Shown: piece after piece, positions 40,846 to 41,646 of the stretch
How positions within the stretch are numbered: the first letter of the stretch is position 1
Layout of the letters: the number at the start of each line of letters is the position of its first letter
From: Trueperaceae bacterium
GTDB taxonomy: Bacteria; Deinococcota; Deinococci; Deinococcales; Trueperaceae
NCBI GenBank assembly: GCA_019454765.1
Contig: JACFNR010000020.1
Coordinates: forward strand, 1-42,503
Reading direction: 5' to 3'
Length of the DNA stretch: 42,503 nucleotides
The notes under the pieces: generated by a model
Told to the model about the DNA's origin: nothing
What the model saw: only the letters and a program-made list of their open reading frames with translations
The model's database searches: none
Position numbers and translations under genes: made by a program

Positions 40846-40874
40846 TTGACGAGTCGCCGCGCGTCTGCTAGTCT
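40846..40874 (+). promoter_or_regulatory. Strong promoter before the small-ORF cluster
   Basis: TTGACG (40846-40851) and TAGTCT (40869-40874) are exactly 17 nt apart, one of the best -35/-10 pairs in the window. Transcription would start near 40881 and read into three consecutive small ORFs. Confidence 0.75.
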
Positions 40875-40904
40875 TTCGCCCGGCTGGGGAGTCGCACGCC
40901 CCAA

Positions 40905-40923
40905 CCCGGCGCCGAGCGCCGGG
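40905..40923 (+). promoter_or_regulatory. Leader hairpin
   Basis: CCCGGCGC-CGA-GCGCCGGG is a perfect 8-bp stem with a 3-nt loop, placed between the promoter and the first small ORF, about 8 nt before its GGGAGGAGG ribosome site. It may modulate access to that site. Confidence 0.55.
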
Positions 40924-40943
40924 ACGCCGGGAGGAGGTAGACG

Positions 40944-41027
40944 ATGGAACGAACCGCGATGGTCGCGCAAGTTGGCGCGCGCCAGGTCGTCGTCGTCGTG
41001 CCCGCCCGGCCGACCCCGATCCACTGA
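40944..41027 (+). CDS. Small ORF 1, 27 residues with a valine run (possible leader peptide)
   Basis: ATG at 40944, 6 nt behind AGGAGG, opens a 27-residue frame ending in TGA at 41025. The peptide contains five consecutive valines (GTC x4, GTG) followed by PARPTPIH and the stop. Position after a strong promoter and a hairpin fits a leader or stalling peptide; a run of one residue just before a Pro-rich end is typical of such peptides. There is no homologous family I know and no branched-chain amino-acid gene downstream. Its status as a translated peptide rests on the ribosome site only. Confidence 0.5.
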   Translation: MERTAMVAQVGARQVVVVVPARPTPIH

Positions 41028-41200
41028 CCTGACCCCCGACTGATGCCGCTGCAAGGCAGCGACGCTGCCATGCGCCGCCGCTCTCCCGCAGCGCCCTCGC
41101 GCCGCAGCGCCGTTCCGGGCGCCGACGCGCCTCGACCCCCAGCGCTCCGCGCCGGGGGACGCCACCACCCCACGCGACTGCAAGCAGGAAGGAAGGTGTC

Positions 41201-41341
41201 ATGCTCGAGCGCACCCTCGAACGGACGAACCCGCAACGCCGGCTCCGCGCGCCCCGCGCCGCCGGCAGCCGCTGCCGCCAACGCCGCCGCCGCTCCGGCG
41301 AGCGCGCGAACCACCCACCACGAGACCGGGTCGCCCGCTGA
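41201..41341 (+). CDS. Small ORF 2, 46 residues, arginine-rich
   Basis: ATG at 41201 behind a purine-rich GGAAGGAAGG opens a 46-residue frame that starts MLERTLERTNPQRR and is about one third arginine; calculated charge is strongly positive. No domain is recognised. It could be a nucleic-acid-binding peptide or a chance frame in GC-rich DNA. The strong ribosome site and its place between ORF 1 and ORF 3 favour a real gene. The 173 nt between ORF 1 and this ORF (41028-41200) contain the small hairpin GGCAGC-GAC-GCTGCC (41055-41069) and little else. Confidence 0.4.
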   Translation: MLERTLERTNPQRRLRAPRAAGSRCRQRRRRSGERANHPPRDRVAR

Positions 41342-41397
41342 GATAGACCGCAGCCCCGTGACCCGCCGCTGGCTAGAGCCCGGGAGGGCCAACCGAG

Positions 41398-41646
41398 ATG
41401 CTAGAGCAGAGTCACTCTCACTTCCTCGCCTCGCAAGAACGAGCACGCGCGTTACGCGAACACGCCGCCAACGTGGCCGTGGTGCGCGCCATCCGCGCCG
41501 AGAAGCGGCGCGCCGCCATCGCGGCCATCCTGCGGACCCTGACCGCCGAGCTGCAGGAACTCGAGCGGAGGACGGACACCGCCTGGCGCGCCCGGCACGA
41601 GGAGCGGGCCGCTCACTCGCGCGGGCGGCTCCAGCAGGTCCGCTGA
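41398..41646 (+). CDS. Small ORF 3, 82 residues, helical coiled-coil-like protein
   Basis: ATG at 41398 behind GGGAGGG. The protein is almost wholly helical and highly charged (ALREHAANVAVVRAIRAEKR, then LTAELQELERRTDTAWRARH), with heptad-like spacing that suggests a coiled coil or helical hairpin. Third-position GC is high through the middle, as in real genes of this window, while the first 18 codons use rarer A/T-ending codons, a feature of true 5' ends. No family is recognised. It is the last of three small ORFs behind the promoter at 40846, and ends 70 nt before the convergent DUF411 gene. Confidence 0.65.
   Translation: MLEQSHSHFLASQERARALREHAANVAVVRAIRAEKRRAAIAAILRTLTAELQELERRTDTAWRARHEERAAHSRGRLQQVR

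Follow-up and report, generated by a model that had tools for sequence, protein, structure and literature searches.

A putative leader-ORF attenuator upstream of small charged proteins in a Trueperaceae bacterium

What is a run of three small open reading frames, none resembling a known family, doing between otherwise ordinary genes of a Trueperaceae bacterium? The window analyzed here (42,503 nt; contig C20 of assembly G000, which has 93 contigs and 2.9 Mb in all) places this run between the gene of a B3/4-domain protein upstream and the convergent gene of a DUF411 protein downstream, and literature searches found no published work on the locus. A first-pass annotation had proposed three small protein-coding ORFs of 27, 46 and 82 codons, each with a purine-rich ribosome site, as a possible stress, attenuation or small-protein system. 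ORFs of these lengths are present on the forward (+) strand (ORF1, 40944-41027; ORF2, 41201-41341; ORF3, 41398-41646), preceded by GGAGGAGG, AAGGAAGG and GGGAGGG, respectively. As developed below, comparison across related genomes agrees in part with that proposal. A terminator behind the leader ORF in other genera and selection on the proteins of ORF2 and ORF3 fit its attenuation and small-protein parts, and a stress role stays conjectural. The three ORFs are not equivalent: ORF3 stands as a protein gene, ORF1 behaves as a leader, and the 46-codon ORF of the window is hardly recognizable as a member of its family. On sequence comparison, we consider it somewhat better than an even chance that the locus is an operon of small proteins controlled by a transcription attenuator that is coupled to translation.

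To place the locus in context, we assembled 20 loci with a leader ORF preceded by a Shine-Dalgarno (SD) site, from 20 genomes and 9 genera within a sampled family of 39 genomes and 17 genera. The SD leader ORF was the selection criterion for these 20 loci, all of which hold it at the same position, so that independent support for it comes from the six loci found through ORF3 (G000, G001, G002, G003, G004 and G009, hereafter the window's clade), where SD and ORF1 likewise recur in place in 6/6. The clade layout consists of an extended -10 promoter with an exact 17-nt spacer, 5′ hairpins, an SD, a leader ORF of 23–42 aa, a gap and small ORFs ending in ORF3. Outside the 20 loci are units with no SD leader ORF (G012, G017, the first unit of G025, and second units in G000 contig 33, G003, G004 and G005) as well as G018, which was left out because its match fell in coding-looking sequence; since the small ORFs of G012, G017 and the first G025 unit stand without an SD leader ORF, the leader is dispensable in some lineages, a point against the attenuator reading. 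ORF3 types of other genera have no clear sequence homology to that of the window, a G004 paralogue being the exception (E 5.6e-7, set of 11). What ties the window to the wider family is therefore the pair G002 and G009, where a clear HWANR-type ORF2 (see below) and a window-type ORF3 occur together, and an ABC-transporter neighbor of the G009 locus that is also found at G020 and G033. Among those listed, 5 of 7 loci (G010, G017, G019, G025 and G035) have the unit following a gene that we take, from its sequence features, to be proS, and a conserved ORF of about 115–125 aa lies between the two in G010, G019 and G035 (L111, L097 and L099 among the loci). Two of these intervening ORFs gave nothing above cutoff against Pfam, with one weak ribosomal S9-like match (E 0.01). 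At L108 (G025:C79), tandem units follow proS, the first without a leader ORF and the second with both a leader ORF and a terminator.

The putative promoter (40846..40874, +) is made up of TTGACG (40846-40851), a 17-nt spacer, a TGC extension and TAGTCT (40869-40874), all read directly in the window sequence at the place claimed for them. The annotation's "strong" has no backing for this promoter: its -10 element shares just 3 of 6 bases with TATAAT, and a consensus scan gave no promoter. What the comparison does show is recurrence, as TTG-N17-TGCTANNNT is common to 20/20 assembled leader loci at the same place, with the qualification that this looser pattern was drawn up after several loci had been seen and that three loci (G015, G020 and G033) were found via the promoter pattern and hold it by construction. 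Across 111 genomes of the phylum, a search for the narrower pattern TTGCATA-N13-TGCTANNNT gives 20 occurrences, of which 15 belong to the leader locus; the other five lie before a substrate-binding protein gene (two, G011/G023), in coding-looking sequence of G012 (one) and in family f3 (two). By eye, a candidate operator-like inverted repeat spans the -35 element in loci outside the window's clade (L104, L108, L111 and others; in G017, for example, GAATATGCGCTTGCATATTC), which suggests a repressor site.

Downstream of the promoter, folding gives a pair of neighboring hairpins at the predicted 5′ end of the RNA (40885..40923, +; 40885-40903 and 40905-40923), and the second is the perfect leader hairpin noted in the first-pass annotation, an 8-bp stem with arms CCCGGCGC and GCGCCGGG around a CGA loop. 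The window leader is more structured than its shuffles (z -2.74), and the folding z is negative in 20/20 loci (mean -1.97). A known RNA was rejected as the identity of the leader, since nothing in Rfam came close to threshold (the best, on the opposite strand, had E 0.5), and similarity at the DNA level was dismissed as only short GC-rich matches.

ORF3 (41398..41646, +), an 82-aa charged protein predicted to be helical, is the clearly conserved gene of the run. Relatives were found in four of five sister genomes (G001, G002, G003 and G004), with none at a comparable score in the fifth (G005), and a profile search added one from another genus (G009). A wider scan of genome contigs returned a single locus, apparently that of G003. 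A profile built without the window sequence ranked ORF3 first of 779 window frames (E 5.4e-17; next, 0.39), bearing out its conservation in relatives. Upon comparing synonymous and nonsynonymous change, with one pair per group, we obtained significant pN/pS ratios of 0.50 for ORF3 (5 pairs) and 0.22 for ORF2 (3 pairs), so that these two ORFs are, by this measure, evolving as proteins; ORF1 gave 0.85 (5 pairs, p 0.42). Predicted from two sequences, ORF3 is one continuous helix (pLDDT 95, pTM 0.59), a kind of model that is easily overconfident. Pfam, NCBIfam and PHROGs held no match of note for ORF3, the PDB no relative, and tblastn gave no convincing match among phages or plasmids. PADLOC returned nothing for ORF1 or ORF2 and only two weak matches for ORF3 (E 0.0027 and 0.036) over the charged helix; as the better of these is a desaturase-named model and was taken to reflect composition, an anti-phage or toxin-antitoxin reading was rejected. 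The statement that no known family fits is therefore sound at the thresholds used for Pfam, NCBIfam, PHROGs, PADLOC, Rfam and PDB, none of which gave a convincing match. Elsewhere, an 89-aa ORF3 paralogue lies between a TTGACA promoter, which it follows directly, and a large gene (L092, G004:C7; L076, G005:C16), and in genus g11 (L054-L057) a further small-protein gene (59–62 aa) with its own TTGACA promoter lies downstream of ORF3.

The intermediate ORF2 (41201..41341, +; 46 codons, Arg-rich) is, by its position and SD, the putative counterpart of a family of small proteins that we call HWANR. ORF2 profiles led to small ORFs in other genera that end in a GYADGER-PR-HWANR motif and share the same locus plan. 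Within the window's clade, an ORF2 lies between ORF1 and ORF3 in four of six loci, with none in G003 and G004. A family profile built without the window's ORF2 did not recover it (score -4.2), and its C-terminally anchored identity to the family amounts to a weak likeness (p 0.019); the ORF2 of the window thus appears weakly conserved. The selection signal on ORF2 comes mainly from the pairs G006/G022 and G030/G036, the pair G029/G035 giving 1.05 on four changes. Searched against Pfam with a cutoff of E 1, 12 ORF2 relatives, the window's among them, had no match, and NCBIfam had none for ORF2. A second ORF2-like gene (58–61 aa), with an HWANQP motif and an extra Arg/Ser tail, occurs beside a different neighbor and behind a long leader with no SD leader ORF (L122, G000:C33:22267-22347, minus strand; L105, L106 and L107 in G003, G005 and G004, respectively).

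ORF1 (40944..41027, +; ribosome site at about 40930-40937) is conserved by position only. Its peptide is under no detectable selection, its start codon in G001 is TTG, and in the close pair G003/G004 it differs at 8/129 positions, compared with 3/228 for ORF3. The Val run that the first-pass annotation noted is unsupported as a functional peptide, and the pN/pS ratio led us to reject a sequence-specific leader peptide. Since its position is kept while the peptide drifts, as would be expected if translation itself were the signal, what counts in ORF1 appears to be the act of translation, not the peptide.

We next consider the gap between ORF1 and ORF2. We scored as a terminator any hairpin with 6 or more pairs and a T run behind it. 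In this scoring, 13 of the 20 gaps are positive: an intrinsic terminator follows the ORF1 stop in 13/14 loci outside the window's clade (the exception being G030) and in 0/6 loci within it. Terminators by this measure are concentrated in the gap (13 in 2452 nt, 5.3/kb) relative to elsewhere in the same loci (12 in 54,484 nt, 0.22/kb), and 8 of the 13 have a stem that starts 22–24 nt past the ORF1 stop. Under a stricter loop limit, 11/20 gaps score, as do 3–9% of same-gap shuffles (29% for G025). Classical antiterminator pairing of ORF1 with a terminator arm was rejected as no better than shuffles, 0/13 loci reaching p below 0.05.

The gap of the window (41028..41200, +; 173 nt) holds no intrinsic terminator and is C-rich (C 0.45, G 0.31); by extension from other genera, it is a putative attenuation region of the Rho type. 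Gaps of the clade (141–211 nt) are longer than in other genera and mostly C-rich. Compared with same-size stretches of its own locus, C minus G in the window gap falls at the 95th percentile, with the 91st, 99th, 97th, 98th and 71st in G001, G002, G003, G004 and G009, respectively; this makes five of six gaps C-rich (91st–99th), in related loci that are not independent. Such C-richness is moderate and not specific to Rho; it looks like a site of Rho loading, which falls short of proof.

The nearest experimentally studied case that we found is the duf1127_1 leader of Sinorhizobium (S.) meliloti (PMC12218461). In that account, the start site lies 279 nt before the gene and is followed by a 29-aa uORF with no intrinsic terminator, and termination, presumably Rho-dependent, is relieved by tetracycline or chloramphenicol; translation of the uORF is needed, its second half can be scrambled, and the product is a small Arg-rich protein whose function is not clear (PMC12218461). 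The window shares with this case the succession of start site, short leader ORF, gap and small Arg-rich protein, the lack of an intrinsic terminator throughout its clade, and a close geometry (predicted start about 320 nt before ORF2, 27-aa ORF1) (PMC12218461). Unlike duf1127_1, its relatives in other genera carry an intrinsic terminator. The proteins also differ, as ORF2 has no Pfam match and ORF3 none to DUF1127 (PF06568). The likeness in layout, with unrelated proteins, suggests that the attenuator would work as the duf1127_1 leader does and leads us to favor an attenuator that responds to translation status. The whiB7 leader is an attenuator that combines a leader ORF with an intrinsic terminator, and the 13 terminator-bearing loci resemble it in having the terminator close behind the leader ORF; they differ in that the downstream products are small helical proteins, where whiB7 encodes a transcription factor, and that no antiterminator was found, and the window's clade differs further in having no terminator. 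In E. coli, the leader uORF of TopAI-YjhQ is reported to sense ribosome-targeting antibiotics (PMC12121999). Control of downstream small genes by uORF translation status, proposed here, would be a common feature, whereas no toxin-antitoxin family was found at the window locus.

From the common layout, the terminator of other genera and the protein-level selection on ORF2 and ORF3, we infer how the locus may operate. Transcription would start at about 40881, producing the stable hairpins and then a well-initiated ORF1. With ORF1 normally translated, RNA polymerase would tend to terminate before it reaches the small ORFs: most relatives have an intrinsic terminator in the gap, and in the window's clade a C-rich, Rho-type region would presumably serve instead, attenuation there being argued by analogy because none of the six clade loci has an intrinsic terminator. 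If too few ribosomes were available, or if they stalled on ORF1 (the presumed signal), the polymerase would read through and the Arg-rich ORF2 and ORF3 would be made, proteins whose charge and helical prediction hint that they might act on RNA or ribosomes.

The main rival to this attenuator is an unregulated stable leader, in which ORF3 is a constitutive small-protein gene, the long structured 5′ UTR only stabilizes its mRNA, and ORF1 and ORF2 of the window are decaying or accidental. The stable 5′ hairpins, the unconstrained ORF1 peptide, the failure of the profile to recover the window's ORF2 and the want of a terminator in the clade all suit such an arrangement, which leaves unexplained, however, why SD and ORF1 persist in 6/6 clade loci and why a terminator follows ORF1 in 13/14 loci outside; we regard it as unlikely, if a serious contender. 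A structured 5′ end closed by a terminator would also yield a short discrete RNA in other genera, raising the prospect that hairpin, ORF1 and terminator form a trans-acting regulatory RNA with the small ORFs as read-through passengers. Such an RNA is improbable given that the leader sequence is not conserved between genera, that Rfam offers no candidate and that ORF2 and ORF3 are under selection as proteins.

Amino-acid-specific attenuation, through cysteine, or nascent-peptide arrest within ORF1 drew on the finding that 17/20 leader peptides contain one Cys or more, where base shuffling within codon positions gives a mean of 8.1. Cysteine is hardly commoner in frame than out of frame, however (23 of 644 codons, compared with 19 and 19 in the other two frames of the same DNA), so that a cysteine-sensing attenuator was rejected as the leading model; with no Cys in the window's ORF1 and no conserved motif in ORF1 at large, we hold either version to be very improbable.

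Returning to the translation-coupled attenuator, its broadest form is one that we put forward tentatively, at somewhat less than an even chance: a family of Deinococcota may possess its own translation-status switch, in which a leader ORF and terminator release lineage-specific Arg-rich helical small proteins when ribosomes falter, the terminator being intrinsic in most genera and Rho-dependent in the window's genus, with the type swapped within one conserved locus, and the whole having arisen separately from the DUF1127 systems of proteobacteria and the whiB7 systems of actinobacteria. If true, this would be an independent case in which a leader ORF ties small Arg-rich proteins to translation status, in a phylum that has seen little regulatory work, and a case of an attenuator that exchanges intrinsic for another kind of termination while its leader ORF stays put. 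It would also add two uncharacterized small-protein families, together with an easily built reporter test.
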